The position numbers and the translations under genes are program-made. From Dolichospermum sp. ST_sed8 (GTDB lineage Bacteria; Cyanobacteriota; Cyanobacteriia; Cyanobacteriales; Nostocaceae), in NCBI GenBank assembly GCA_028658405.1, contig JAKOGY010000001.1:1-64000 (forward strand): a stretch of 64,000 nucleotides of DNA, read 5' to 3'. The stretch's first letter is position 1. Each line of letters starts with the position of its first letter. Positions 28,501 through 53,245 of this stretch are shown one piece after another. The notes under the pieces were generated by a model. That model was not told the origin of the DNA and did no database searches. It saw only the letters and a list, made by a program, of their open reading frames with translations.

Positions 28501-30129
28501 ACGAGTAATATTAAACTCTTGCCAACGCCAAGCTTTGAGACCATCTACACCAGCGCTGATAATGTAGTCTTTTTGATATTTTCCTTCTTTGTCTTTGAGG
28601 GTGTCAAAAATAACGGAATAAACTGCCCCTTCGTGATTACCAATAATGAGATGTCGTTTACCTTGGGTGTCAGAAAGATCCCATAATCGTACTGTTCCGT
28701 CACTACTAGCAGAAGCCAATGTTCGTCCGTCGGAGCTAAAACTGACACTTGTAACATAATCATCATGCCCTGAGAGGGTGCGGATTTGATTTCCTGTCTC
28801 CACTTCCCAGAGTTTGATCTTCATGTCACGACCACCAGAAGCCAATATCTGTCCGTCGGGGCTAAAACTGACGCTCCAAACATAACCATCATGTCCTGAA
28901 AGGGTGCGGATTTGGTTTCCTGTCTCTAATTCCCAAAGTTTTATCTCCCTGTCAAAACTAGCAGAAGCCAATGTCTGTCCGTTGGGGCTAAAACTAATGC
29001 TTGTGACATAATTATCATGCCCTGAGAGAGTGCGGATTTGGTTTCCTGTCTCCACTTCCCAGAGTTTGATCTTCCTGTCACGACTACCAGAAGCCAATGT
29101 CTGTCCGTTGGGGTTAAAACTGATGCTATTTATATAATTGTTATGCCCTGTAAAGGTAGGGATTTCCCTTCCTGTCTCCACTTCCCAGAGTTTGATCTTT
29201 TTGTCACGGCCACCAGAAGCCAATGTCTTTCCGTCGGGGCTAAAACTGACGCTTCTAACGGAATTATCATGCCCTGTGAAGGTGAGGATTTCCCTTCCTG
29301 TCTCTACTTCCCAGAATTTGATCTTTTTGTCACGACCACCAGAAGCCAATGTCTTTCCGTCGGGGCTAAAACTGACACTATTAACATAATGATCATGCCC
29401 TGTAAGGGTGCGGATTTGGTTTCCTGTCTCTACTTCCCACAGTTTGATCTTTTTGTCACAACTACCAGAAACCAATGTCTGTCCGTCATGGCTAAAACCA
29501 ACGCTATTGACATAACCATTATGCCCTGAGAGGGTGCGGATTTGATTTCCTGTCTCTACTTCCCACAGTTTGATCTTTTTGTCACGACCACCAGAAGCCA
29601 ATGTCTGTCCGTCGGGGCTAAAACCGACACTATTGACATAATTATCGTGATCTGTAAAAGTGCGAATTTGGTTTCCTGTCTCTACTTCCCACAGTTTTAT
29701 CTTGTTGTCACCACCACCAGAAGCCAATGTTTGTCCGTCGGGGCTAAAACTGACGCTATTAACATTACTATCATGCCCTATCAGGGTGCGGATTTCCCTT
29801 CCTGTCTCTATTTCCCAGAGTTTGATCTTGTTGTCATCACCACTAGAAGCCAATGTCTGTCCGTCGGGGCTAAAACTGACGCTCAAAACAGAATAATCGT
29901 GACTACCCTGGCAAGTTAACCACTTTGTCCCGGTTAGCACATTCCAAATTTCTATTGTACCATCTTGTAAACCCACAGCAATGCGTTGTCGTTCTTGGGG
30001 TGATACAGCTACTGTATATACTTGACAATCGAACTCAGCAAAGGGTTTTGAGGGTTCTGGGTTTTGAATTTCTTGTTCAGGTTCGGGAAATAATAAGCTT
30101 TGTGCCGATACTTCACTTTGTGCTTCCAT
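25591..30129 (-). CDS. WD40-repeat KAP family P-loop NTPase
   Basis: A 1512-residue protein of unusual architecture. Residues about 30-536 hold twelve WD40 blades, of which ten (residues 76-486) are near-identical 42-residue units ending in IKLWEVETG. A KAP NTPase module follows, with Walker A GNWGSGKS at 587-594 and Walker B IVLYIDDLDRC at 1127-1137. Between them is a long insertion with coiled coils (about 730-870 and 965-1060) and a hydrophobic hairpin at about 893-953. This is the KAP feature that places the ATPase at a membrane. Residues about 1210-1330 are acidic and low in complexity. KAP NTPases are found in bacterial conflict systems and plasmids; the WD40 part could sense a ligand or protein. 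The function is not known. It is a lone gene with no linked effector. Confidence 0.9.
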   Translation of the reverse strand: MEAQSEVSAQSLLFPEPEQEIQNPEPSKPFAEFDCQVYTVAVSPQERQRIAVGLQDGTIEIWNVLTGTKWLTCQGSHDYSVLSVSFSPDGQTLASSGDDNKIKLWEIETGREIRTLIGHDSNVNSVSFSPDGQTLASGGGDNKIKLWEVETGNQIRTFTDHDNYVNSVGFSPDGQTLASGGRDKKIKLWEVETGNQIRTLSGHNGYVNSVGFSHDGQTLVSGSCDKKIKLWEVETGNQIRTLTGHDHYVNSVSFSPDGKTLASGGRDKKIKFWEVETGREILTFTGHDNSVRSVSFSPDGKTLASGGRDKKIKLWEVETGREIPTFTGHNNYINSISFNPNGQTLASGSRDRKIKLWEVETGNQIRTLSGHDNYVTSISFSPNGQTLASASFDREIKLWELETGNQIRTLSGHDGYVWSVSFSPDGQILASGGRDMKIKLWEVETGNQIRTLSGHDDYVTSVSFSSDGRTLASASSDGTVRLWDLSDTQGKRHLIIGNHEGAVYSVIFDTLKDKEGKYQKDYIISAGVDGLKAWRWQEFNITRVPQAFRNDQATGEDSLDVAKELQSLADVLMLRSLEPPLAVAILGNWGSGKSFGMHLIEKQITKIRCQQLTEKQTWGKTGDETYLSPYVGHVYQIKFNAWSYAKSDLWASLMQTIFEQLDRQLTLEQQLRTNGNVNDLAGGEIWGVLNQMSDSDRKAILESQLSEEIFANLNADNYALWDILSKVRKKEKDKLECIENELQKLEAAVQVDNQNIEQLEQDFNQEIKKIEVNIARKMSDKAILVVFLSQLKETLKDDFGNSILKDFLNSCGFKDRKDLEKQFPILKDLEKLSESTILDKAEELIKNENKKKNQKDNKIKILVKNKEQITNFLEEQPSKIVGFTEFTKKNKKILLIFLGTITLPFITYCLIVYIIPTVLNVLPFFKTISTGLQLWLTSVSAIPAISIGLEIFKKIQVLQVKAVKFFQLAKENIQEEKQKLEKEKEQKTQEEIEKAIKECQKATKEDENNEDHSKLEDEQNQDIKTIYKLKEAANKKLNENQEKIEKLQLQAERQKQRVGLTAQYTSLLDFVNNRLEENSYQKLLGIMNQVQRDLSDLSDHLTYIPGKTNPDKLAVLKEIFPRGPVRIVLYIDDLDRCPPDKVVQVLESVQLLLNTNIFIIVLAIDDRYIGRALEQTYRGVLKRGGTPSGVDYIEKIIQLPYRMRPISKDVAESYLKSLVDIQEETKQENQNFFNSQSVSQKNTVLQQTTEQSSIPLQQVNNESSFLPELEEVSEISYQDNFKEYPVIEEYTVETEETITEDNISKSQNKKSNSESKNKKIQHSANSDPLVSFERFTAEEFQWIKECCQHVDLTPRTAKRLINICKIIKIIWTPTANDTTWKIEPTPECKQTLIAFLALAGRYPKEMRKFLEEIYLEFEETDTDTVIIEKDVWLNRLQNLDVFMDRHNQREWKKFKLDFIKMPPQTEFVFEKRTFNLVTSFCFVGDIGYDPDDNYNREYRFEDRKKEYGFPKN
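28672..29904 (-). repeat. 126-bp tandem coding repeats (WD40 blades 2-11)
   Basis: The DNA coding for blades 2 to 11 is a 126-base tandem array. Units share long stretches such as CCAGAAGCCAATGTCTGTCC (plus strand) with few differences. This nucleotide identity means the blades were recently duplicated or homogenised. Confidence 0.85.
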
Positions 30130-36402: not shown

Positions 36403-38175
36403 TTAGCCTTTCACACACAAAACTTGTTTGAGAGTTGCGACTATTTCTACCAAATCAGATTGGTTGGCCATTACTTGTTCAATGGGTTTATAAGCGCCGG
36501 GAATTTCATCTAAAACTCCCGTATCTTTCCGACATTCTACACCTTGAGTTTGCTCGATTAAATCATCAAGAGTATAGACATTTTTAGCTTTACTTCTTGA
36601 CATTAAGCGCCCTGCACCATGAGAACAACTGAAAAAACTATGAGCATTTCCTTTACCTTTAACAATGAAAGATTTTGCTCCCATTGAACCAGGAATAATC
36701 CCATAATCTTCTGTTTGAGCGCGAACTGCACCTTTCCGAGTGACATACACATCTTCGCCAAAATGTACTTCTTTTTCGGCATAATTGTGATGACAATTTA
36801 CCTCTAATAAAGGTTTGGTAACTTTGCCCCCATTGAGATGTTTTTCCACGATTTTTTTAAATCGGGACATCATCACATCACGGTTAAAAAGTGCGTAATT
36901 TTGCGCCCATTGTAAGTCTTCCCAGTAGGCTTTAAATTCAGGTGTTCCCACGACAAAGTGAGCTAAATCGGGATCTGGTAATTTATTATTTGCCATTTTC
37001 GCTAATTCTTTAGCAGTATTAATATGGCATTGTGCGAGTTTATTACCAATATTCCGAGAACCGGAATGCAACATTAACCAAACTTGGTTTTCTGTATCGA
37101 GACAAAGTTCAATAAAGTGATTGCCTGATCCGAGAGAACCTAGTTGTTTCATCGCTTTACCTTCTAAATCTTGCACACCACGATGCAAATTAGAAAAATC
37201 GCGCCATCTTTGCCAGTTAGTTACAGCTTTTTCTACATCTTTATTTTCATTAAATCCTGTGGGAATTGCGGCTTCAATATCGAGGCGAATTTTCTTTAAT
37301 TTGCCTTCTAATTGTTCACCTGTAAATTGTGTTTTGATAGCACTCATACCGCAGTTGTGAACAAATACCCCAGCTTTGAGAGCGAAGTTATGATGTTCCG
37401 GTACTGTCAAACAATACACATTTTCCGTGTAATTTAGAGGAATTACATCTACAATTTTATGATTATACGTATATTCTGGAAATACCAGATTATCTGATTC
37501 ATGGAAATTGCGATGATGAATAATTGTTGTTTGTCCCTCAAATTTGGGAATTTTACCTAATAAACCAGAACGAGCAATCATCCAATGTGCTTTTTGCCAT
37601 CTTCCAGAATATGGTTGAGATATGAGAGTATAACCATCTTTATCAATTTGGGAATAAAAAGGCATTAAAGAAGTACCTGCTTCCAGTAATTGTGCTTCTT
37701 GATAATTGCCATCTCTAAGCATAAATTGATGATCTGGAGTACAGATAATCTCTTCATCATTATCTAAAATTACTTTGACAAGGTACGCATTTTTTCTTGT
37801 TAATTTTGCATTAGCTTTAGCAGCTACAATTTTTCCTGTTGGTGTACAGGCATAAACTATAAATTCTGCATTTTTATCAGCTAATTCTCTTATTTGATAA
37901 AATTTTCCATCAACTAGAGGAATCAATGTTTCTCCAACAAAGCAACCTAAGTCCACCCCCACAGCCGCAGGAATAATAGCATCTTTAGTAGCAATAACTG
38001 AACCAACTAACGCCCCTTTTCCTAAGTGAACATCAGGCATTAAGGCAACGTGCTTAAATACAAATGGTAATGAGGCTACATTCTTAGCCATTTTAGTTTC
38101 ATCTGAACCTAATGGATGATTTGCCCAAGATAAAACGGGATGTGGTGTGGTAATTCCTAATTGTTCGTAGGGCAT
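36403..38175 (-). CDS. rtcB: RNA-splicing ligase RtcB interrupted by an intein
   Basis: A 590-residue precursor. The extein parts (residues 1-77 and 275-590, 393 residues in total) form an RtcB RNA ligase, which joins 2',3'-cyclic phosphate and 5'-OH ends using GTP and Mn2+. Conserved blocks are MPDVHLGKGALVGSV, AVGVDLG|CGMSA, LGSLGSGNHFIEL, HSGSRNIG, VNCHHNYA and SCSHGAGRLMSR with the guanylated His. The intein (residues 78-274) sits exactly before the metal-ligand cysteine. Its excision would regenerate the uninterrupted VGVDLGCGM. No archease or other RNA repair gene is adjacent. Confidence 0.93.
   Translation of the reverse strand: MPYEQLGITTPHPVLSWANHPLGSDETKMAKNVASLPFVFKHVALMPDVHLGKGALVGSVIATKDAIIPAAVGVDLGCFVGETLIPLVDGKFYQIRELADKNAEFIVYACTPTGKIVAAKANAKLTRKNAYLVKVILDNDEEIICTPDHQFMLRDGNYQEAQLLEAGTSLMPFYSQIDKDGYTLISQPYSGRWQKAHWMIARSGLLGKIPKFEGQTTIIHHRNFHESDNLVFPEYTYNHKIVDVIPLNYTENVYCLTVPEHHNFALKAGVFVHNCGMSAIKTQFTGEQLEGKLKKIRLDIEAAIPTGFNENKDVEKAVTNWQRWRDFSNLHRGVQDLEGKAMKQLGSLGSGNHFIELCLDTENQVWLMLHSGSRNIGNKLAQCHINTAKELAKMANNKLPDPDLAHFVVGTPEFKAYWEDLQWAQNYALFNRDVMMSRFKKIVEKHLNGGKVTKPLLEVNCHHNYAEKEVHFGEDVYVTRKGAVRAQTEDYGIIPGSMGAKSFIVKGKGNAHSFFSCSHGAGRLMSRSKAKNVYTLDDLIEQTQGVECRKDTGVLDEIPGAYKPIEQVMANQSDLVEIVATLKQVLCVKG
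37354..37944 (-). other. In-frame intein in RtcB (197 residues, HNH-like remnant)
   Basis: Block A is CFVGETLIPLVDGKFYQI at the start, with Cys1 as nucleophile. Block B is ICTPDHQFMLRDG, with the T-x-x-H pattern. Block F is VYCLTVPEHHNFAL, and block G ends FVHN before the +1 Cys of the extein. Between B and F, HWMIARSGLLGKIPKF and IIHHRNFHESDN resemble a shortened HNH homing endonuclease. All splicing residues are present, so it should be able to splice. The HNH part looks reduced. Confidence 0.9.
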
Positions 38176-39445: not shown

Positions 39446-40144
39446 ATGTTTGAGCAAACTTTTAAAAATATTGATGATGTTCTCTGGAAAGAGGCGGGCT
39501 GTACTACAGAGTTAGATTACACAGAACAAACTTCATGGCTATTGTTTTTGAAGTATTTGGATGATTTGGAACAGGAACGCTCTGAAAAAGCGGAATTAAG
39601 TGGCGAATCCTATACGTTTATTATTGAGCAAAAACATCGTTGGTCAGTTTGGGCAGCACGAAAAGATAAAAATGGTAAATTAGATGATGATCATGCTTTA
39701 ACTGGGGATGATTTAATCAATTATGTAAATGGTGAATTATTTCCATATTTACAAGGTTTTAAGGAACGGTCTAGCGGTTCAGATACTATAGAATATAAAA
39801 TTGGCGAGATTTTTAGCGAGATAAAAAATAGGTTTCAAAGTGGTTATAGTTTGCGGGATGCTTTGGAATATATTGATGAATTAAGATTTAGATCCCAGCA
39901 GGAAAAACATGAGTTATCCCATCTCTATGAAGCAAAAATCAAGAATATGGGAAATGCGGGGCGTAATGGTGGGGAATATTATACACCACGTCCTTTAATT
40001 CGCGCCATGATTCAGGTTGTTAAACCGAAAATTGGTGAAAAAATTTATGATGGTGCTTGCGGTTCGGCGGGTTTTTTATGTGAATCGGTGCTTGAATCTG
40101 AATCTTCAATACTAGAGGCTTTTGTGGCAGAGGCAACGGTATAA
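39446..40144 (+). pseudogene. hsdM: Type I restriction-modification methylase HsdM, truncated
   Basis: The first about 215 residues are clear HsdM: the N-terminal helical domain (MFEQTFKNIDDVLWKEAGCT, SWLLFLKYLDDLE) and the start of the N6-adenine methylase with EYYTPRPLIRAM and SAM-binding motif I YDGACGSAGFLCE. The protein then stops. The NPPF catalytic motif and the rest of the domain (about 250-300 residues) are absent. The last residues, LESESSILEAFVAEATV, do not fit HsdM and may be the tail of a hicB-type gene fused at the break, because a hicA sequence begins at the overlapping TAATG. The methylase cannot work. Confidence 0.85.
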
Positions 40145-40504
40145 TGACAAAGTTTCCGGTTGATGCTCCTAAAGCAAAAGTGATTAAGGTGCTTGAAAGT
40201 TTTTGATTTTTAATAGTACGAGAAAAAGAGCATATTTCTATGATTAAACAAAATTCTGATGGCACAAATACTCCTTTAACTTTACCAAATCATAAACTTA
40301 TTAAAGGTTCTACTCTCAGAGGGTGTTTGAAAAGTATCAGAATTAATCGAGATCCCCCCAACCCCCCTTAAAAAGGGGGGATTTAGGGGGATCTACGGGT
40401 GTCAGATCCCACAAAAAAAAGTTTTCAAACAACCTCTCAGAAGTATCTGTACTCAATCTGGTATCTCACGGGATGATTTTATTGCTGCTTATGAACAAAG
40501 TTAG
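40144..40504 (+). pseudogene. hicA: HicA family toxin gene, inactivated twice
   Basis: The reading frame starts MTKFPVDAPKAKVIKVLESF, hits a TGA where relatives have a Gly codon (codon 21), then continues as FLIVREKEHISMIKQNSDGT and NTPLTLPNHKLIKGSTLR, the HicA double-stranded-RNA-binding-like fold with its catalytic His region. After LR the frame is split by a 114-bp element (40321-40434). It resumes as SICTQSGISRDDFIAAYEQS and a stop. HicA toxins degrade mRNA. The nonsense mutation and the insertion each inactivate it. Confidence 0.85.
40321..40434. mobile_element. 114-bp MITE inserted in hicA with target duplication
   Basis: The terminal inverted repeats are GGGTGTTTGAAAAG and GGTTGTTTGAAAAC (12 of 14 match). 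The interior has the hairpin CCCCCCTTAAAAAGGGGGG. TCTCAGA stands on both sides (40314-40320 and 40435-40441) as a target-site duplication of 7, possibly 8, bases. Removing the element and one duplicate joins CTC-AGA to AGT-ATC and restores the hicA reading frame exactly. Confidence 0.88.
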
Positions 40505-40534
40505 AAATATATTCGCTCTGATTGGGGGGATGTT

Positions 40535-41572
40535 GTGAGTGAGATAAGTTCTCAGGATTATGCTAATTTCTGCTATGAGATTAAACGGCGAATCCGCGAT
40601 CGCCAATTGGCAGCTTTACGCAGTGTAAATCGGGAATTAGTGCGGCTATATTGGGAAATTGGCGAGTTAATTCACCACAAGCAGGAAACCCTAGGCTGGG
40701 GTAAATCTGTGGTGGAAACTCTAGCGCGAGATTTACAAAGTGAGTTCCCAGGACGGAATGGGTTTTCGGCAAATAATCTCTGGTTAATGCGCCAGTTTTA
40801 CTGTGAATATGTGGATCATCCAAATCTCCAATTATTGATTGGAGAAATTAGCTGGACAAAGAATCTAGTCATTTTTGGTCGTTGTAAAGATGATTTGGAG
40901 CGGGAATTTTATCTTCGGGCTACGGCTCGTTATGGCTGGACAACGGCGGTGCTTAAACATCAAGTAGATAATAAGAGTTATGAGAAATATTTACTGAATC
41001 AAACTAATTTTGATGCCACTGTAACGGATGATATCAAGGCACAGGCGGTGCTGGCGGTTAAAGATAACTATACCTTTGATTTTCTGGATTTGGCGGATCA
41101 ACATTCAGAACGGGATTTAGAGCAGTCTTTGGTGCAGAATTTACGGGGGTTTCTGTCTGAGTTGGGCGGTGCGTTTGCGTTTATTGGTAATCAATATCGG
41201 CTGGAGGTGGGTGGTCAGGAATACTTTATTGATCTGCTATTATTTCATCGTCGGTTACGCTGTTTGGTGGCAATCGAGTTGAAAATAGGTGATTTTAAGC
41301 CGGAACATAAGGGCAAAATGGAATTTTATCTGGAGGCTTTGGATTGTCAAGAAAAGATGGAGGGTGAAAATCCGCCGATAGGAATGATTATTTGTCGTTA
41401 TAAAAATAAAACGGTGGTGGAATATGCTTTACGAACGGCATCCCGTCCGATTGGGGTGGCGACTTATACAATTGTACCGCAGTTGCCTGATGCTTATCGT
41501 GAGCAGTTGCCTAGTCCTGAAGAGATTGCTGAACGGTTAAGATTATGGCAGGAGGATAGTAATGATGAGTAG
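40535..41572 (+). CDS. DUF1016 (YhcG-like) PD-(D/E)XK nuclease family protein
   Basis: A 345-residue protein. The N-terminal DUF1016 domain covers about residues 1-170 (RSVNRELVRLYWEIGELI, NLWLMRQFYCEY). The C-terminal domain, about 180-335, has the nuclease motif: D in YFIDLLLFHRRLRCLVAIEL with the following K, then KGKMEFYLEALD. Such genes often accompany restriction systems, and a nuclease role is inferred. The frame starts with GTG. It lies 30 bases after the hicA remnant and its end overlaps the hsdS start, so the two are probably co-transcribed. Confidence 0.88.
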   Translation: MSEISSQDYANFCYEIKRRIRDRQLAALRSVNRELVRLYWEIGELIHHKQETLGWGKSVVETLARDLQSEFPGRNGFSANNLWLMRQFYCEYVDHPNLQLLIGEISWTKNLVIFGRCKDDLEREFYLRATARYGWTTAVLKHQVDNKSYEKYLLNQTNFDATVTDDIKAQAVLAVKDNYTFDFLDLADQHSERDLEQSLVQNLRGFLSELGGAFAFIGNQYRLEVGGQEYFIDLLLFHRRLRCLVAIELKIGDFKPEHKGKMEFYLEALDCQEKMEGENPPIGMIICRYKNKTVVEYALRTASRPIGVATYTIVPQLPDAYREQLPSPEEIAERLRLWQEDSNDE

Positions 41573-42752
41573 TGGAGAGATGGAATTGATGGTTGATAAT
41601 AGACAGTTGCCAGTGGGGTGGGAAATTAAAAAACTTGGTGAAGTTTGTACTCTTCAAAGAGGATTTGATCTTCCTAAAGGACAACGAGAAGAAGGTGATT
41701 ATCTTCTAATTAGCTCTAGTGGTTGTATTGATACTCATACAGAAGCTAAATCATTCGCTCCAGGTGTAGTTACTGGTCGAAGTGGAAGTATTGGATCTGT
41801 TTTTTTTATTACTGAAGATTTTTGGCCTCTCAATACGACTCTTTATGTAAAAGACTTTCACGGGAATGATCCGCGCTTTATATTTTATTTACTCAACAAA
41901 TTTGATCTCAAACGTTTTGCGAGTGGAGTTGGAGTTCCAACACTTAATAGAAATAGTGTTCATAGTGAGTTAGTAATAATTCCATCATCAATTATTGAAC
42001 AAAAGCGAATTGTGGCGATCGCAGATGAGGCATTTGAGGGGATTGATAGAGCAATTCGTAACACGGAAAAAAACCTCTCTAATGCCCGCGAATTATTTGA
42101 AAGTTATCTAAATTCAATCTTTACCCAAAAAGGCGACGGGTGGGTAAAAAGCAAGCTTAACGAAGTTTGTGAAAAAATCACTGATGGAACTCATCAAACA
42201 CCAAAATATTTTGAAACAGGTTTCGTATTTTTATCCTCGCGTAATGTTACGACTGGCGCAATTAATTGGGATAAAGTCAAATATATAGACGATGCACAAC
42301 ATATCACTATGCAGAAGCGTGTTTCACCTCGGCTATACGATATATTATTGGCAAAAAATGGCACTACGGGTGTTGCTGCATTGGTTGATAAAGACATTGA
42401 TTTCGATATTTATGTTAGCCTAGCTTTGCTTAGACCATTGCCAGTGATCTTGCCTAAATTTATGTTGCACTTTGTCAATTCTCCAGTTGCAAAAGAGCAG
42501 TTCAATAAAAGATTGAAAGGCATTGGAGTTCCCAATTTACATTTAGAAGAAATCCGAGAGGTAACTATTTGTTATCCACAAGAATTGAGATTACAAGAGG
42601 GTATAATTATCAAGATCGATGAGATGCGAAGTCAGATTCTTCGCCTCGAAAACATCTACCGCCAAAAAATCGCCGCATTAAAAGAACTGAAACAATCCAT
42701 CCTACAAAAAGCATTTACAGGAGAACTCACCGCACATAAAGGGGAAAAATAG
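41562..42752 (+). CDS. hsdS: Type I restriction-modification specificity subunit HsdS
   Basis: A 396-residue DNA-recognition subunit. It has two target recognition domains: about residues 15-150 (PVGWEIKKLGEVCTLQRG, ending PLNTTLYVKD and EQKRIVAIADEAF) and about 195-350 (WVKSKLNEVCEKITDGTHQT, ending RPLPVILPKFMLHF). Each is followed by a helical spacer, and the end is LKELKQSILQKAFTGELT, the standard HsdS terminus. AGGAGG precedes the ATG. The gene looks intact even though its partners hsdM and hsdR are broken, so it may pair with an unlinked methylase or be a passenger. Confidence 0.92.
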   Translation: MMSSGEMELMVDNRQLPVGWEIKKLGEVCTLQRGFDLPKGQREEGDYLLISSSGCIDTHTEAKSFAPGVVTGRSGSIGSVFFITEDFWPLNTTLYVKDFHGNDPRFIFYLLNKFDLKRFASGVGVPTLNRNSVHSELVIIPSSIIEQKRIVAIADEAFEGIDRAIRNTEKNLSNARELFESYLNSIFTQKGDGWVKSKLNEVCEKITDGTHQTPKYFETGFVFLSSRNVTTGAINWDKVKYIDDAQHITMQKRVSPRLYDILLAKNGTTGVAALVDKDIDFDIYVSLALLRPLPVILPKFMLHFVNSPVAKEQFNKRLKGIGVPNLHLEEIREVTICYPQELRLQEGIIIKIDEMRSQILRLENIYRQKIAALKELKQSILQKAFTGELTAHKGEK

Positions 42753-42772
42753 AAAAGATGATAAAAATATTT

Positions 42773-43021
42773 TGTCTGAATCAGGATGCTCAGGATTTAA
42801 GGATGTACAGGATGTTTATTGATATTATAAAATAGTATTTATTTCCGACAGAAAACGAATAAATCAATCCTGAAAATCCTCAAATCATGGAAATCCTGAT
42901 TCTGACAAAAAATGTATAAGCTGTTTATTAATATAATCAAATAGTATTTATTACCGACAGAAAACGAGTAAATCAATCCTGAAAATCCTCAAATCCTGGA
43001 AATCCTGATTCTGACAAAAAA
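42773..43021. repeat. Two further CAGGAT-type palindromic elements
   Basis: TGTCTGAATCAGGATGCTCA at 42773 pairs with the end TGGAAATCCTGATTCTGACA at about 42906. A second copy of the body and right arm follows to about 43018. The body contains TATTTATTTCCGACAGAAAA, unlike the bodies at 1-967, so this is a subfamily. It fills the gap between hsdS and vapB. Confidence 0.8.
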
Positions 43022-43047
43022 TGTACACTTACTAGCAGAGAGTTTAA

Positions 43048-43672
<625 letters not shown>

Positions 43673-43676
<4 letters not shown>

Positions 43677-45449
43677 ACGAAGCAGAAACCCGCGCCGAAT
43701 TAATTGACCCCGCCTTAACTGCTGCTGGTTGGGGAGTTATCGAAAATAGTCGCATCCGTCGAGAAGTCATCGCCCCTGGCCGTTTAATTGGCAACGGTAA
43801 ACGGGCAAAAGCAGACATCGCTGATTATGTATTAGTTTATCGTGGTGAAAAACTCGCTGTTATTGAAGCTAAAAAACGCGAATTACCTGATACAGAAGGT
43901 TTAGCACAGGCTAAAAAATACGCCGAAAAATTACAAACTCGCTTTGCATACTCTACCAATGGTGTTGGCATCTATCAAGTAGATATGCACACAGGGAAAG
44001 AAGGCTATATAAATCAATATCCCACACCCCATGAACTATGGGAAGCCACCTTTAATAAAGAAAATACATGGCGCGATCGCTTTGCAACTATTCCCTTTGA
44101 AGATAAAAGCCTACGCTTATTTTGGTGAGCCTGTTTATATTTATGCGCTCAAAGATGGGATTAATGATGGGTTTTTAACTCCCTTTAAAGTTAGAGAAAT
44201 AGAAACTACTTTAGATGAATATATTTACAGCCCTGATGATGATGTCATAGAAGGGGCGATAGATGATGAAAAAACCTATACAGAAACTGATTTTAATCGC
44301 ATCATTGAAATTGAAGAACGGGAACGCTACCGAGTGCAACTATTCATGGAGAAAATAGATCAAAATCAAAAAACTCTTGTATTTTGTGCTAACCAAGATC
44401 ACGCCCTAGCAGTAAGAAATTTAATCAATCAAATCAAGATTAGTAATAATCCTAATTACTGTCATCGAGTTACAGCTAATGATGGGAAATTAGGAGAACA
44501 ACACCTCAAAACGTTTCAAGATAATGAAAAAAATATTCCTACTATTTTAACAACTTCTCAAAAACTTTCCACAGGAGTTGATGCTCGCAATGTGCGGAAT
44601 ATAGTATTGATGCGTCCTATTAATTACATGATTGAATTTAAACAAATCATTGGTCGTGGTACTCGGTTATATGATGGGAAAGATTATTTTACTATTTATG
44701 ATTTTGTCAAAGCCTACGAACATTTTAACGATCCAGAATGGGATGGTGAACCCCAAGAACCTGTAAAAGTTACCAACAGAAAAGCACGGGAGTTATCACC
44801 AAATACAGATGATAATAACCCAGAAGAGAGAAGCGAAAAAACAAAAAATATCACACCTAAAATAATTAAAGTTCAATTAAGAGATGGTAAAGAAAGAACT
44901 ATTCAACATCAAATATCTACCAGCTTTTGGAGTCCAGATGGTAAACCCATGACTGCCGCAGAATTTATAGAAAAGCTATTTGGTGAAATTCCCGAACTGT
45001 TTAAAAATGAAAATGAATTAAGAACTATTTGGAGTCGTCCAGATACAAGAAAAGCCCTATTAGAAGGATTATCAGAAAAGGGTTATGATTCAGAACAACT
45101 AACGCAAATTAGCTGTTTAATTAATGCTGAAAGAAGTGATTTATATGATGTTTTAGCCTATATTGCTTATGCTTCTGTGCCTATTAGCCGTCGGGAAAGG
45201 GTTTTGGCTCATAAATCGTTAATTTTCTCTAAGTATGTAGGTAAACAACAGGAATTTCTTAATTTTGTGTTAGATCAATATATTAAGGATGGAGTAGAAG
45301 AACTGGATCGATCTAAATTACCCCAACTATTAGAGTTGAAATATCATACTGTTCATGATGCTATTAAAGAACTAGGTAGCGTTGCTAATATCAGTGAAGT
45401 ATTTATCGGATTTCAGCAGTATTTGTATTCACAAGATATAGCAGCTTAA
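43673..45449 (+). pseudogene. hsdR: Type I restriction endonuclease HsdR with internal deletion and frameshift
   Basis: The 5' part (43673-44128, 151 residues) carries the N-terminal nuclease domain, with DIADYVLVYRGEKLAVIEAKKR supplying the D, E and K residues, and ends at WRDRFATIPFEDK. The next bases switch frame and resume in AYAYFGEPVYIYALKDGIND, then helicase motifs V and VI (STGVDARN, QIIGRGTRLYDG) and the C-terminal domain. In full-length HsdR a stretch of roughly 300 residues with helicase motifs I, II and III lies between FEDK and DTYAYFGEPVY. That stretch is gone here, at a junction near 44107. The motor and therefore restriction are lost. Confidence 0.88.
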
Positions 45450-45914: not shown

Positions 45915-46808
45915 ATGACAACCACAACCCAAGATATACAAACGCTGGAAAAACATATTTGGATTTGGCGAGATTACAAAATTCAATATACAGTTATGGG
46001 TACAGGCCAACCATTGGTATTAATTCACGGCTTTGGTGCTTCCATTGGTCATTGGCGCAAAAATATCCCGGTTTTAGCTGAAGCTGGTTATCAGGTGTTT
46101 GCTGTAGATTTGTTGGGGTTTGGGGGTTCTGATAAAGCAGTTATAGATTATAGCTTGGAACTGTGGGCAGAATTATTAAAAGATTTTTACAATGCCCATA
46201 TTCAAACACCAGCAATATTTATTGGTAATTCTATTGGCGCACTTTTAAGTTTAATTGTGTTAACAGAATATCCAGAAATTGCGGCTGGAGGTGTATTAAT
46301 TAACTCTGCGGGTGGTTTAAGTCACCGTCCCCATGAATTAAACCCAATTTTACGAGTTGTTATGGGAACTTTTAACAAGTTGGTAGCTAACCCAGTTACA
46401 GGTAAATTTGTATTTAACCGCATTCGTCAAAAATCGCAAATTCGTCGGACTTTATATCAAGTATATAGCGATCGCAATGCCGTGACAGATGAACTGGTTG
46501 ATTTACTTTATAACCCATCTTCTGACCCCGGAGCGCAAGAAGTTTTTGCTTCTATTCTCACTGCACCCCCAGGACCTAGCCCAGAGGAATTATTACCTAA
46601 GTTGGAATTTCCTTTGTTAGTAATTTGGGGTGCAGAAGATCCTTGGACACCAATTACGGGAGCGAATATTTATGAAGCAGCGCGAGAAAATGGCCAAGAT
46701 ATCAAAATTGTTCCTATTCCCGGCGCTGGTCATTGTCCCCATGATGAAGTTCCAGATATTGTGAATAGTGAAATTATTGATTGGTTAGGAGAGGTAATAA
46801 ATAATTAG
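45915..46808 (+). CDS. Alpha/beta-fold hydrolase
   Basis: A 297-residue esterase-like enzyme. The oxyanion region is VLIHGFGASIGHWRKN and the nucleophile Ser is in IGNSIGALLSL. The acid is in WGAEDPWTP and the His in GAGHCPHDE. The cap domain between about residues 135 and 210 is helical. Close relatives in cyanobacteria resemble chlorophyll and pheophytin esterases of plants, but the substrate cannot be decided from sequence. It is a single gene between the restriction remnants and the DUF262 operon. Confidence 0.88.
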   Translation: MTTTTQDIQTLEKHIWIWRDYKIQYTVMGTGQPLVLIHGFGASIGHWRKNIPVLAEAGYQVFAVDLLGFGGSDKAVIDYSLELWAELLKDFYNAHIQTPAIFIGNSIGALLSLIVLTEYPEIAAGGVLINSAGGLSHRPHELNPILRVVMGTFNKLVANPVTGKFVFNRIRQKSQIRRTLYQVYSDRNAVTDELVDLLYNPSSDPGAQEVFASILTAPPGPSPEELLPKLEFPLLVIWGAEDPWTPITGANIYEAARENGQDIKIVPIPGAGHCPHDEVPDIVNSEIIDWLGEVINN

Positions 46809-46909
46809 TGATTTCTTAAACAGCAGAAGTTCAATAATTAGGCTATAAATCTCATGTAATCCTAGAAAATAGTGGAATAAAACATTGGATATTATGGATA
46901 TAAGTCTAT

Positions 46910-47839
46910 TTATTGAATTTTAATATCAATATAGCCAATTATGATTTCAGTTGAGTTTAAAGGATAAAAATACAATCTCCATGCACCCGGAGTCATGCGA
47001 ATATGCAAACTAAATAATCTTTTTTTTCCGTCAGGACATTGAAAAGTTAACTCTTGTTCAAATTTTTGTAATCTGGATTCACTTTCGGGAGTTGCTTTAC
47101 TAGGTAAACTATTGAGATCAAAATTACCTACTGTCCAATTTTTAGAAGCATTTTCAACTTCTGTTAATTTTTTAATAATTGCTTGAAATATAGGATGACT
47201 ATTCTTAATATTTTGTAATTGTTTTTCTACAGAATCACAAAATTCTAAATGAGGAAATATCTTTTTTCTTTTATTCCATAAATCTAAGCCATTATTAATA
47301 TTATCTTGAAGACGACTCTTAATCCATGTTTGATGTTCAATAACATGATTTATACTGCTTGCGTGTCTAACTTCTATAATTTCTTCTAATAATTCTCCAT
47401 CTTCATTATTTGTAATTTGTAATAGATGGATAACACTATTTTTCCATAATTTGTGTGTTTTCAAACTAACAGATAATGCTTTTAATCTATAAGCATAGAC
47501 AAATCCTTTCGGTTCGTTATTATAATCTGTGCAAGCATATAATAATTCACTTTCTTGATCTTGATCAAAAATTTCATCAGATTCAAAAAATTGCATACTC
47601 AAGATAAAATCCTGTTCAACTTGATCAACATTTGGATCATTAAGCCATTTAGATATAGGATAATTAGATGCAAGATTAATATTATGAAAACTATTATGAC
47701 TTAGTAATTGTTGTTGTATTCCTTGTTCTAATGCTTCTCTTAAAGTTTGAATAAAATTAGACATTAATTCTCTAGCTTTATATTCGTTATCTTCTAAATT
47801 CAAAAGACATAATTCATTAAATACCAGTTGAGTATCCAT
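46910..47839 (-). CDS. Unknown third gene of the DUF262-AAA operon
   Basis: A 309-residue protein I do not recognise. Residues about 1-200 are helical and acidic. The C-terminal about 60 residues (CPDGKKRLFSLHIRMTPGAW, then RLYFYPLNSTEIIIGYI) form a compact beta-rich piece vaguely like a RelE-type fold; this likeness is an inference only. It starts 3 bases after the AAA gene ends, so all three genes should be translated from one mRNA. It is the natural candidate for the effector or adaptor of the system. Confidence 0.7.
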   Translation of the reverse strand: MDTQLVFNELCLLNLEDNEYKARELMSNFIQTLREALEQGIQQQLLSHNSFHNINLASNYPISKWLNDPNVDQVEQDFILSMQFFESDEIFDQDQESELLYACTDYNNEPKGFVYAYRLKALSVSLKTHKLWKNSVIHLLQITNNEDGELLEEIIEVRHASSINHVIEHQTWIKSRLQDNINNGLDLWNKRKKIFPHLEFCDSVEKQLQNIKNSHPIFQAIIKKLTEVENASKNWTVGNFDLNSLPSKATPESESRLQKFEQELTFQCPDGKKRLFSLHIRMTPGAWRLYFYPLNSTEIIIGYIDIKIQ

Positions 47840-47842
47840 TAT

Positions 47843-48943
47843 TTAATCTCCCACTGGTGCTAATAATGCTCTTGCACTTTTATTCCATTCATCAAAGAAA
47901 TTTTTAGGAATTTTATCAATACGTCCTTTCTTATCTAATTTAGGAGAGATAATTTTAATTTCATTCGTTTTATCTCGAATCTCAAAAAAGTGAAGTTGTA
48001 CATCTTCAGGTTTAATTTTGCCAGCATGAACAGAAATTCTGATACCATATAAAATATGATCACTATGACTTTCAATAATTACTTGAATACCATGATTAGC
48101 AGCTAAAGCTAATAATTGACCTAGTTGTGATTGTCCTTGGGGGTGAAGATGAGATTCAGGATTTTCAATAATTATCATTGTTCCTGGTTTAGAGGAAAGA
48201 ATTGCTGTGAGAATAGGTAAAGAATAAGTGACACCAAAACCTACATTAAAAGGAGAATATTCTTTACTAACGCCAAAAGAATATTTTATTGTCATTGCAT
48301 TGGCAACTTGTCTTATGTTAATATTAATATTAGGACTAATTTCTCCCATCCAAGCATCAACTTGATCTTTTAAACTTTGAGATTTACTGCAAGGATGACT
48401 TAATTCACTAATGGGAATATCTTGATTACCAAATTCATATAAAAAATGTGCGGTATATTCTCCTTTTTTACCTATTTGTCTATGTTTAACAACATCATTT
48501 TCAGATAAAGGATAAGATTCTTCTGGTGTAATTCTTTCTGCACCTAAATAGTGAAAATTATCATTAAATAAATTAAATTGATTAACTTGAGCATCATTAA
48601 TTATTAATGCAATTGGTAGCACATTACTACTAGGAGAATCATAATCAAAATTCCAGATTGTGTGCTGATCATTTTCCCAAACAATACCAAAGCTAATTAA
48701 TTCTTCTTCCGCATTTTCATATAGAGCATCTTCAGCAGTACCTATATAAGCTATCTTATTATCAAGTTTTATCCCACTATTAGGTAAATAATCTCTTATA
48801 TAAGCATAGCGTAATAAAACTAATGATTGAATTATAGAAGATTTACCTGTACTATTTAAACCAGAAATTAAGGTAAGAGATTTAAAATCAAAATTTTCAT
48901 CTGCAAATGCTTTGAAGTTTTTTAAATGTAATTTTTTGATCAT
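47843..48943 (-). CDS. AAA family ATPase (OLD/DUF3696-like)
   Basis: A 366-residue SMC/OLD-like ATPase. It opens MIKKLHLKNFKAFAD. Walker A is GLNSTGKS (residues 28-35), an ABC-like segment is at about 230-245 (FNVGFGVTYSLPI), Walker B is IIIENPESHLHP (257-268), and the ESHSDHIL switch motif is at 291-298. These are typical of AAA15/AAA21 ATPases in anti-phage systems. The C-terminal part matches the DUF3696 type. No Toprim nuclease domain is attached. It overlaps the DUF262 gene upstream by 4 bases. Confidence 0.85.
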   Translation of the reverse strand: MIKKLHLKNFKAFADENFDFKSLTLISGLNSTGKSSIIQSLVLLRYAYIRDYLPNSGIKLDNKIAYIGTAEDALYENAEEELISFGIVWENDQHTIWNFDYDSPSSNVLPIALIINDAQVNQFNLFNDNFHYLGAERITPEESYPLSENDVVKHRQIGKKGEYTAHFLYEFGNQDIPISELSHPCSKSQSLKDQVDAWMGEISPNININIRQVANAMTIKYSFGVSKEYSPFNVGFGVTYSLPILTAILSSKPGTMIIIENPESHLHPQGQSQLGQLLALAANHGIQVIIESHSDHILYGIRISVHAGKIKPEDVQLHFFEIRDKTNEIKIISPKLDKKGRIDKIPKNFFDEWNKSARALLAPVGD

Positions 48944-50097
48944 AATAATATACTTTGAATAATTCCTTGAATATGTTTAAATCGTTCTTTAACGCTGTTA
49001 GCATCTCCAGCACTTTTATATAAAATACAATCAAATTTACCATCTTCTTGCTCTTTTAATAAAACTTCATATAAATCTTCTTTTCTTTGTTTAACAATAT
49101 TGATTTCCTGATCATCTAATTTAGCAAGATTGATTGACCATGCTTCCAACAATGCTTTATTAATAGGATATCTTTTTTGTTGCTTTATGGTAGATAGTTT
49201 TGGTTTTCTAAATGCTTGTCTATCAAATAAATCATAAGCAAGATTCATAATCAACAGAAATTCCTGTTTAATGTTCTCTATTTCAGAATCATCCATTTGA
49301 TTCATCTCGGTCATTTTTCCATCTAAAAAATAATCATAATCTTTAAAATTCAGGTTATCTATATTACTTGTCATTAAAGATAAAACTTTTAAAATACATT
49401 CTTGATCAATCATTCTTTTATCTTTAATTCCGTTATCTGTTGTTTTTTTAAATTCTGGAGATTGAGAAAGTTCTTTTAATAAATTTGTGATTTTATTTGG
49501 AGAGTTTTTAGCATAGCGCATTTCTTGAGCAGAAAGTGCAGTTCCTCCTTGATTAATCCGTTTAAATATATTAAAAGTAATTTCGGATGATGTTCCTCTT
49601 AAAATTAAATATACTGTTAATTTTGTTTCTTTAATTCTTCTTTGCCAACGAGGTGTAAGTTCCTGATATTTTTTACCATGTAAATCAGTGAAAAAATCTA
49701 ATCCATCGAGAGTAAAACTTTGATCAGTTACAAATTCCTTAAATGTTGTTATTCTTTGCATTCCATCTATAACCAACCATTTATCATCATTAGTTGCATC
49801 AATATAAAAAGCAGGTAAAGGAATTTGCACTAAAAGAGATTCAATTAACCGACTTTTTGCAGTTTTAGTCCAAATACCTTCTTTTCGTTGAAATTCAGGG
49901 GCGATCATTCGATGATTATTTAATCTGTTCAAAATTTGCTGTACGGTCATGATATTAGTTCCCATACTAATGCAAGTCGGATCAAATCCTTGAGAAAGCG
50001 TTGGCTCTTCTGTTGGTTCTTCTTCCTCTTCAATATCTATATCTTCCTCATATTCTGAGTTAATCTGATTTTGTTCTAAATTATTTGTTTCTGTCAT
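48940..50097 (-). CDS. DUF262 (GmrS N-terminal-like) protein
   Basis: A 385-residue protein, the first gene of the operon. An acidic N-terminal tail (EEDIDIEEEEEPTEEPT) precedes the DUF262 domain, which has the ParB/sulfiredoxin-like motif VIDGMQRITTF (D111-R115) and the F-x3-N-x-GG-x-L block IFKRINQGGTALSAQEMR. DUF262 proteins include the nuclease subunits of GmrSD and SspE-type defences. There is no DUF1607 (GmrD) domain. Its start lies 205 bases from the divergent uvrA start. Confidence 0.88.
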   Translation of the reverse strand: MTETNNLEQNQINSEYEEDIDIEEEEEPTEEPTLSQGFDPTCISMGTNIMTVQQILNRLNNHRMIAPEFQRKEGIWTKTAKSRLIESLLVQIPLPAFYIDATNDDKWLVIDGMQRITTFKEFVTDQSFTLDGLDFFTDLHGKKYQELTPRWQRRIKETKLTVYLILRGTSSEITFNIFKRINQGGTALSAQEMRYAKNSPNKITNLLKELSQSPEFKKTTDNGIKDKRMIDQECILKVLSLMTSNIDNLNFKDYDYFLDGKMTEMNQMDDSEIENIKQEFLLIMNLAYDLFDRQAFRKPKLSTIKQQKRYPINKALLEAWSINLAKLDDQEINIVKQRKEDLYEVLLKEQEDGKFDCILYKSAGDANSVKERFKHIQGIIQSILL

Positions 50098-50302
50098 AAT
50101 AGTAGAAGAAAAAAGTTTTCACGCTGTTTCCTGTGATGTTTAGTAACCAGATGGAGTATAATACATTTTTTTTGCAGGCAATGATAAGACACTGTTGGTA
50201 AAATATTTCTTCATGAAAATACATGATAAGTGGGAAACTCATTAACAAAGATAGTATTATTAAGGATTGTTTCATCATGTAACCTTCCTTTAGCCTGTCA
50301 AT

Positions 50303-53245
50303 ATGTCAGAAAATCTAGCTGCTTCTTTAAACGATGTGCTTCCAAACGCTCACAATAGCCAGAATACTATCCGCATTCGGGGCGCTAGGCAGCATAATCT
50401 GAAAAATATTGATTTGGAATTACCCCGCGATCGCTTGATTGTCTTTACTGGCGTTTCTGGTTCGGGTAAATCGTCTTTGGCGTTTGATACCATCTTCGCG
50501 GAAGGTCAACGCCGTTATGTGGAATCCCTGAGCGCTTATGCTCGGCAATTTTTGGGACAGTTGGATAAACCTGATGTGGAAGCAATCGAAGGTTTGAGTC
50601 CAGCAATTTCCATTGACCAAAAATCAACTTCCCACAATCCTCGTTCCACGGTGGGGACGGTGACGGAAATTTATGATTATCTGCGATTGTTATATGGTCG
50701 CGCTGGTGAACCCCATTGTCCGCTGTGCGATCGCTCTATTGCTCCCCAGACCATTGACCAGATGTGCGATCGCATCATGGAACTTCCCGACCGGACCCGC
50801 TTCCAAATCTTAGCCCCTGTGGTGCGCGGTAAGAAGGGAACTCACCGCAAATTAATTTCTAGTTTAGCTGCTCAAGGTTTTGCTCGTTTGCGGGTAAATG
50901 GAGAGGTCAGAGAGCTATCAGATTCCATTGAGTTAGACAAAAATAATACACATACTATAGAACTGGTTATTGACAGATTAGTTAAAAAAGAAGGTCTACA
51001 AGAACGTTTAGTAGATTCTCTAGCAACTTGTCTTAAGCAATCTCACGGCATTGCCATGATTGAGGTATTAAAAGATACATTTGATAAGATAGCGCAGGAG
51101 CGGTCTGATAGTAAGTATATAACAACTGAGGCAGAAAGTCAAGATATTTCGGAACAAGAATTACCCACAGAAATGGTATTTTCTGAAAACTTTGCTTGTC
51201 CCGAACATGGTGCGGTAATGGAAGAATTATCCCCGCGTTTATTTTCTTTTAATTCACCTTATGGAGCTTGTCCCCATTGTCATGGGATAGGAACTTTAAG
51301 AAGATTTTCACCGGAGTTGGTTGTACCTAACACAGATTCGCCGATGTATGCGGCAATTGCCCCTTGGTCAGAAAAGGAAAACTCCTATTATTTGGAGTTG
51401 CTGTATGCTGTGGGCTTGAATTATGGCTTTGAGTTACAAACACAATGGGGTAAGTTGACACCAGAACAGCAAAAAATTGTTTTGTATGGGGAAGAAAATA
51501 AGAAAACTACAGAAGAGAAAAAGCAGAGTTTCAAAGGTGTAATTCCCATTTTACAAAGACAGTATGAAGGAGGAACAGAGTTAGTTAAACAGAAATTAGA
51601 AGAATATTTAATTGACCAACCCTGCGAAGTTTGCGGAGGGAAAAGATTAAAAGCAGAAGCCTTAGCAGTGAAGTTAGGACAATATGGAATTTTAGATTTT
51701 ACCAGCGTTTCCATTCGGGAATGTCGGGAAAGAGTAGATAAAGTAAAATTGAGCGATCGCCAAACCCAAATTGCTGATTTAGTTCTCAGAGAAGTTAGAT
51801 CTAGATTACAATTTTTATTAGATGTTGGTTTAGATTATCTCACCTTAGATCGTCCCGCTATGACATTATCAGGTGGAGAAGCGCAACGGATTCGATTAGC
51901 TACACAAATCGGTTCTGGACTAACAGGAGTTCTTTACGTTTTAGACGAACCAAGTATCGGGTTACATCAACGAGATAATGGAAAATTACTGAAAACATTA
52001 ACAAAATTACGGGATTTAGGAAATACCTTAATAGTCGTCGAACATGACGAAGAAACTATTCGTGCAGCTAACTATATAGTTGATATTGGTCCTGGGGCTG
52101 GAATTCACGGGGGACATATTATTTCTCAAGGAAGTTTAGAGAATTTATTAAATGCCGAAGAGTCTTTAACTGGTGCTTATTTATCAGGAAGAAGAGTTAT
52201 AAGTACCCCAACTAAAAGAAGAGAAGGAAATGGCCGGGCTTTAACTATTAGAAATGCCCGTCGCAACAACTTACAAAATATAGATGTAGAAATTCCCTTG
52301 GGGAAACTTGTATCTGTTACAGGTGTTTCTGGTTCAGGAAAATCTACCTTAATTAACGAATTACTTTATCCGGCATTACAACATCATTTACTCAAAAAAG
52401 CTCCTGCACCCAAAGATATAGATGAAATTAAAGGTTTAAACTGCGTTGACAAAGCCATTGTCATTGACCAATCACCTATTGGGAGAACTCCCCGTTCTAA
52501 CCCCGCAACTTACACCGGAGTTTTCGATATAATTCGTGATATCTTTTCCCAAACTGTAGAGGCAAAAACCAGAGGTTATAAACCTGGACAATTTTCTTTC
52601 AATGTCAAAGGTGGACGTTGTGAAGCTTGTAGTGGACAAGGTGTAAATGTCATTGAAATGAATTTTCTTCCTGACGTTTACGTCCAATGTGAAATTTGCA
52701 AAGGTGCGAGATATAACCGCGAAACTTTGCAAGTTAAATATAAAGATAAATCAATTTCTGATGTTTTGAATATGACAGTTGAAGAAGCATTAGCTTTCTG
52801 TCAAAACATTCCTAAAGCCGTAACTAGATTACAGACGTTAGTAGATGTCGGTTTGGGTTATGTGCAGTTAGGACAACCAGCGACAACTTTATCTGGAGGG
52901 GAAGCACAACGGGTGAAGTTAGCTACAGAATTATCTCGACGCGCAACAGGAAAGACTTTGTATTTAATAGATGAACCGACTACAGGTTTATCTTTTTATG
53001 ATGTTCACAAATTATTAGATGTTTTGCAAAGATTGGTAGATAAAGGCAATTCAATTTTAGTCATTGAACATAATTTAGATGTAATTCGTTGTTCCGATTG
53101 GGTAATAGATTTAGGACCAGAAGGAGGAGATAAAGGCGGAGAACTTATTGCCGCAGGAACGCCAGAAGATGTGGCAAAAAATCCCCGTTCATATACTGGA
53201 CAATATTTACAGGAGGTCTTGAAGCAATATCCAGCGGTAAGCTAA
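50303..53245 (+). CDS. uvrA: Excinuclease ABC subunit A (UvrA)
   Basis: A 980-residue damage-recognition ATPase of nucleotide excision repair. There are two ABC ATPase modules: Walker A GVSGSGKSSLAF near residue 50 and GVSGSGKSTLINELL near 675, with signatures LSGGEAQRIRLA and LSGGEAQRVKLA. Zinc-finger cysteines appear as CPLC, CPEH..CPHC, CEVC and CEACSGQG..CEIC. The usual H-F-x-D-V after Walker B is S-F-Y-D-V here (DEPTTGLSFYDV). Length is normal. A 62-bp repeat array begins 6 bases after the stop. Confidence 0.97.
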   Translation: MSENLAASLNDVLPNAHNSQNTIRIRGARQHNLKNIDLELPRDRLIVFTGVSGSGKSSLAFDTIFAEGQRRYVESLSAYARQFLGQLDKPDVEAIEGLSPAISIDQKSTSHNPRSTVGTVTEIYDYLRLLYGRAGEPHCPLCDRSIAPQTIDQMCDRIMELPDRTRFQILAPVVRGKKGTHRKLISSLAAQGFARLRVNGEVRELSDSIELDKNNTHTIELVIDRLVKKEGLQERLVDSLATCLKQSHGIAMIEVLKDTFDKIAQERSDSKYITTEAESQDISEQELPTEMVFSENFACPEHGAVMEELSPRLFSFNSPYGACPHCHGIGTLRRFSPELVVPNTDSPMYAAIAPWSEKENSYYLELLYAVGLNYGFELQTQWGKLTPEQQKIVLYGEENKKTTEEKKQSFKGVIPILQRQYEGGTELVKQKLEEYLIDQPCEVCGGKRLKAEALAVKLGQYGILDFTSVSIRECRERVDKVKLSDRQTQIADLVLREVRSRLQFLLDVGLDYLTLDRPAMTLSGGEAQRIRLATQIGSGLTGVLYVLDEPSIGLHQRDNGKLLKTLTKLRDLGNTLIVVEHDEETIRAANYIVDIGPGAGIHGGHIISQGSLENLLNAEESLTGAYLSGRRVISTPTKRREGNGRALTIRNARRNNLQNIDVEIPLGKLVSVTGVSGSGKSTLINELLYPALQHHLLKKAPAPKDIDEIKGLNCVDKAIVIDQSPIGRTPRSNPATYTGVFDIIRDIFSQTVEAKTRGYKPGQFSFNVKGGRCEACSGQGVNVIEMNFLPDVYVQCEICKGARYNRETLQVKYKDKSISDVLNMTVEEALAFCQNIPKAVTRLQTLVDVGLGYVQLGQPATTLSGGEAQRVKLATELSRRATGKTLYLIDEPTTGLSFYDVHKLLDVLQRLVDKGNSILVIEHNLDVIRCSDWVIDLGPEGGDKGGELIAAGTPEDVAKNPRSYTGQYLQEVLKQYPAVS

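Follow-up and report, generated by a model that had tools for sequence, protein, structure and literature searches.

The window analysed here, a 64,000-nucleotide stretch of Dolichospermum sp. ST_sed8 (NCBI GenBank assembly GCA_028658405.1, contig JAKOGY010000001.1, positions 1 to 64,000 of the forward strand), carries on its minus strand a compact three-gene operon, nsnA, nsnB and nsnC, that is almost certainly, to judge by its sequence, a complete copy of the anti-phage-type system Menshen (NsnABC), and whose third protein ends in a domain predicted to fold like the RelE/ParE toxins. Each gene is an intact, ATG-started open reading frame (ORF), together spanning 46910-50097, and the ORF coordinates confirm the tight packing described in the original prediction, with nsnA and nsnB overlapping by 4 bases (48940-48943) and nsnB parted from nsnC by 3 (47840-47842); the coordinates of the remaining features are collected in Table 1. 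Searching the proteins against the PADLOC profiles, as that prediction had proposed, returned full-length Menshen matches for all three: NsnA to PDLC03877 (E 1.6e-113, residues 9-384 of 385), NsnB to PDLC03878 (E 5.3e-118, residues 1-361 of 366) and NsnC to PDLC03879 (E 3.9e-87, 291 bits, residues 1-308 of 309). In PADLOC and DefenseFinder usage these names denote the components of Menshen. The DGMQR, Walker A, Walker B and ESHSDH motifs singled out earlier are all in place, the first as VIDGMQR in NsnA (Pfam GmrSD_N/DUF262, 80.9 bits) and the others as GLNSTGKS, a Walker B-like IIIENPESHLH and the H-switch IIESHSDH in NsnB, in which Pfam finds AAA_15, AAA_21 and DUF3696. The naming is also consistent with a review (PMC10952713) in which Menshen is said to pair a DUF262 gene with a predicted OLD-type protein. 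The lead to Menshen given by the original prediction was therefore correct, and its remark that the third protein belongs to no recognised family stands in part: Pfam gives NsnC no match above cut-off and NCBIfam holds no matching model for any of the three proteins, which is why the third had looked unknown, but the PADLOC NsnC profile covers it from end to end. A Het-C identity for NsnC was rejected, as the Pfam score of 16 bits lies under the cut-off of 21.

The arrangement is widely conserved. GTDB genomes scanned with an NsnB alignment yielded at least 80 loci, and counts were made on the best 80. NsnA was detected in 77 of them and lies no more than 60 bp upstream of NsnB in 74; an ORF follows NsnB in 78, of which 76 encode the NsnC N-terminal domain, so that the order A-B-C is kept in nearly all. 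The co-conservation of the ATPase and DUF262 genes, on which the earlier anti-phage interpretation depended, has thus withstood scrutiny, and full-length profile matches (E 1e-87 to 1e-118) combined with a gene order that recurs in some 80 other loci argue against a chance association. Hosts among the matches listed include Cyanobacteria, Chloroflexota, Pseudomonadota, Desulfobacterota, Bacillota, Myxococcota, Planctomycetota and one Methanosarcinaceae archaeon, the closest named operon relative among them being that of Anabaena sp. UHCC 0204 (NsnB 93% identical). Within the host's own order, 92 of 391 genomes contain an NsnC match, and in one genome (G437) a single reading frame covers NsnB together with the initial part of NsnC.

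NsnC is modular: its N-terminal part (approximately residues 1-165) is common to nearly all homologues, and its C-terminal part varies. The kind of tail found in the window, type 1, is the commonest, at 60 of the 78 ORFs that follow NsnB. At three loci (L080, L085 and L107) the C-terminal part of NsnC is a RelE/ParE toxin by sequence, matching TIGR02683 at 80-97 bits, above the curated NCBIfam cut-off, with Pfam Gp49 also above cut-off in two of the three; at two more (L103 and L145) NsnC bears further tails of unassigned family. Another tail domain occurs in the NsnC of five loci and in that of a second, likewise complete Menshen locus (G000:C416, L068:2774-5861), which the window's own genome carries beside a coaBC/dfp-like gene. 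The NsnA and NsnB of that second locus are 44-46% identical to those of the window and the NsnC N-terminal domain is common to both copies, with a tail unrelated in sequence to the window's (PDLC03898 type, 360 bits, with a KFYEFQPDN..GYHGYPI-like motif). The same tail domain closes a 1900-residue protein that looks like a polymorphic toxin, and it recurs in a small protein whose start is signal-like.

Tails of the window's type also occur apart from a complete nsnC. In two related genomes, one of them Okeania, several additional type 1 tails lie in tandem directly downstream of nsnC (G584, L049:3411-5584; G600, L050:3034-4950), spaced by about 365 bp in G600, and some of the copies are close to identical with the tail that the full gene carries. 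Such arrays resemble the cassette arrays of polymorphic toxins and, by analogy, may offer a route for tail exchange. In other cyanobacteria, away from Menshen, an NsnC-type tail ends long predicted membrane and coiled-coil proteins (L051-L054, e.g. L051:2144-3538), retaining the E, H and R residues described below and GYxGxHL-like residues. A plasmid collection searched with the NsnC tail yielded no match.

Structure prediction gives the window's tail a tentative identity. The AlphaFold2 model of NsnC, built with 46 homologues, has a predicted local distance difference test score (pLDDT) of 92, and residues 196-309 modelled alone reach 94.4, as expected of a domain that folds independently; the compact, beta-rich end noted in the third protein from sequence alone thereby resolves into a separately folding, RelE/ParE-like domain in the predicted model. 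When this tail model was compared by Foldseek with 350,542 PDB chains, the six best matches were all RelE/ParE toxins, headed by E. coli RelE (4fxe; probability 0.99, template modelling score 0.67 normalised by target). All 46 homologues keep three polar residues unchanged, E252, H279 and R288, which would fit an active site; several ribonucleases (RNases) of the RelE/ParE fold class have an E-H-R set. Other searches were silent: Pfam gave no match above cut-off to the tail, NsnC had no sequence match in the PDB, and a viral fold library returned no informative match. The RelE/ParE fold of the window's tail is a predicted one, drawn from structure modelling only.

In the window there is no antitoxin gene next to nsnC, the neighbour being a convergent hydrolase gene, and among the downstream ORFs of 61 loci there is no recurrent antitoxin-like fourth gene, only tail cassettes or frameshifted tails together with unrelated neighbours. 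Classification as a type II toxin-antitoxin system, which calls for an adjacent antitoxin gene, was accordingly set aside. Since no such gene follows nsnC, here or recurrently elsewhere, the leash on the putative toxin would have to lie within the complex itself. We propose that NsnB, as an ABC/OLD-type ATPase, and NsnA, as a DUF262 nucleoside triphosphatase (NTPase), together act as an infection sensor and switch that keeps NsnC inactive; that infection would trigger a nucleotide-driven rearrangement freeing or activating the C-terminal domain of NsnC; and that the freed tail, as a RelE/ParE-fold RNase, would cut messenger RNA, probably on ribosomes, and so stop translation, halting the phage and possibly the cell too. 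That NsnC is the toxin-like effector of Menshen we regard as probable, and the reading as a whole, Menshen with a RelE-like NsnC effector released by NsnA and NsnB, as likely; that the target of the effector is RNA we hold with moderate confidence. By a slight preference we would go further and see in NsnC a polymorphic effector, whose N-terminal domain docks on NsnA/NsnB, and whose RNase-type tails, RelE-like in the window and other toxin domains elsewhere, are swapped between systems, partly by way of tandem cassettes downstream of nsnC like those of G584 and G600; an NTPase complex would then take the place of an antitoxin in restraining the RelE-type toxin.

It is worth noting that several observations weigh against this proposal. 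Firstly, the best Foldseek E-value of the tail match is weak (0.04), and hhalign found no significant profile-profile similarity between the tail and RelE or YoeB sequences. Secondly, the full-length NsnC model found no fold match in the PDB at E<=0.001, its best matches being meaningless, and the RelE-like fold came into view after the tail had been cut out. Thirdly, E252, H279 and R288 could be structural. Finally, the review (PMC10952713) speaks of a predicted OLD nuclease as part of Menshen, so that the nuclease could be NsnB. On that alternative NsnB would be an OLD-like nuclease with NsnA and NsnC as accessories, the NsnC tail binding nucleic acid or protein and not cutting RNA, and the nearest solved sequence relatives of NsnB, the OLD and PtuA ATPases, speak in its favour. 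We nevertheless consider it unlikely: NsnB ends with DUF3696, Pfam detects no TOPRIM domain in it, its 366 residues leave little space for a separate nuclease, and the swappable toxin domains sit on NsnC, not on NsnB.

The operon is an accessory element, occupying a spot, flanked by an alpha/beta hydrolase gene and by uvrA, whose contents differ among genomes of the same genus. Two of these genomes (G617 and G675) have 98 bp there and no insert; G062 has a YoeB-like toxin-antitoxin pair and G101 a Uma2-like gene (both named by sequence inspection), and G666 has an intact orthologous Menshen. Elsewhere the system has decayed, with nsnB split by a 1.1 kb transposase-bearing insertion sequence (IS) in G663 (L202:7083-8217) and most of nsnC deleted in G243. 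Decay being common at this spot, one must consider that the window's operon may itself be a decayed or non-functional copy, a view made very improbable by its three intact frames with canonical motifs and by the signature of selection: relative to the G666 ortholog, the ratio of non-synonymous to synonymous divergence (dN/dS) is 0.22 for nsnA, 0.24 for nsnB and 0.45 for nsnC, which indicates purifying selection on the trio, weakest on nsnC. Against G666, synonymous divergence (dS) comes to 0.11-0.13 in the three genes and to 0.43 in the flanking hydrolase gene, and this lower value in the trio suggests that the operon was transferred after the window strain and G666 diverged. As many as nine of the cyanobacterial Menshen loci have a methylenetetrahydrofolate reductase-like gene on the upstream side of nsnA (e.g. 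L093:1766-2677), possibly marking another shared insertion site.

Comparison with known systems places the operon squarely within Menshen (NsnA-NsnB-NsnC; Millman et al. 2022 as cited in PMC10952713), with which it agrees in its components, their order and their domains (DUF262, AAA ATPase, NsnC) and from which no difference sets it apart, its NsnC having a predicted RelE-fold tail that bears no sequence-family annotation. The variant with a differing third protein that the original prediction had envisaged, in effect a novel Menshen-related three-gene system with a new third subunit, could appeal to the want of a Pfam or NCBIfam family for that protein, but is scarcely credible given its full-length, 291-bit PADLOC NsnC match, equally canonical NsnA and NsnB, and the same protein type with a window-type tail after NsnB in most of the 78 loci. 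The likeness to type II toxins such as E. coli RelE lies in the predicted fold of the NsnC tail, and three NsnC relatives carry a true member of that family; the operon itself has no free-standing toxin or antitoxin gene. PARIS and Lamassu-like systems, in which control of a separate effector falls to an ABC-type ATPase, follow a logic similar to the working proposed here for Menshen, and are not known to have a DUF262 subunit; AriA profiles of PARIS match NsnB at a lower score, and there is no AriB in the window's operon. PD-T4-2 and GmrSD/BrxU have the DUF262 domain in common with NsnA (PD-T4-2_A match, 108 bits) but differ in their partners. GmrSD type IV restriction, which combines DUF262 with a DUF1524 nuclease, was rejected, Pfam finding GmrSD_N alone in NsnA and no DUF1524. 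The window therefore adds a member to a known system, and the results on the RelE-like tail and the cassettes stand as independent findings; a 2025 paper by Li et al. in Nucleic Acids Research (NAR), reportedly on Menshen domain polymorphism to go by its title, may already describe the diversity of NsnC tails.

Table 1. Menshen operon, its insertion spot and neighbouring defence remnants in the window.
Feature	Position	Strand	Remarks
nsnA	48940..50097	-	DUF262 (GmrSD_N, ParB/Srx-like NTPase fold), 385 amino acids; PADLOC NsnA PDLC03877
nsnB	47843..48943	-	ABC/OLD-type AAA ATPase with C-terminal DUF3696, 366 amino acids; PADLOC NsnB PDLC03878
nsnC	46910..47839	-	two-part protein, 309 amino acids; PADLOC NsnC PDLC03879
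Coding region of NsnC residues 196-309, proposed effector domain	46913..47254	-	RelE/ParE-like predicted fold and conservation
Accessory insertion spot holding the Menshen operon	46809..50302		between hydrolase gene and uvrA; occupancy differs in same-genus genomes
Alpha/beta hydrolase gene	45915-46808	+	flank of insertion spot, convergent to nsnC
uvrA	50303-53245	+	other flank of insertion spot
Broken type I restriction cluster	39446-45449	+	truncated hsdM, hsdS, hsdR in two overlapping-frame pieces
Truncated HsdM	39446-40144	+	part of broken type I restriction cluster
HsdR in two pieces	43673-45449	+	part of broken type I restriction cluster

Beyond the hydrolase gene lies a broken type I restriction cluster, and the restriction remnants and toxin-antitoxin genes reported nearby are real, comprising a truncated HsdM, a YhcG-type nuclease, HsdS, a PIN toxin and a split HsdR. 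The YhcG-type PDDEXK nuclease (PADLOC candidate PDC-S02) and the PIN-domain toxin pair both lie inside the cluster. Further away, on the minus strand, an in-frame mini-intein (Pfam Intein_splicing, residues 85-274) splits an RtcB RNA ligase gene (36403-38175), and a 1512-residue protein (25591-30129) joins an N-terminal WD40 propeller to a C-terminal region that matches the QatA-type NTPases of defence systems.

For Menshen as a family, a third protein that had seemed to be without a name is now replaced by an effector candidate that can be tested, and the presence of two copies with different NsnC tails in one genome allows a direct comparison. If the proposal is true, Menshen would attack RNA or translation to stop infection, and a RelE-type toxin could be leashed by ATPases without any antitoxin.
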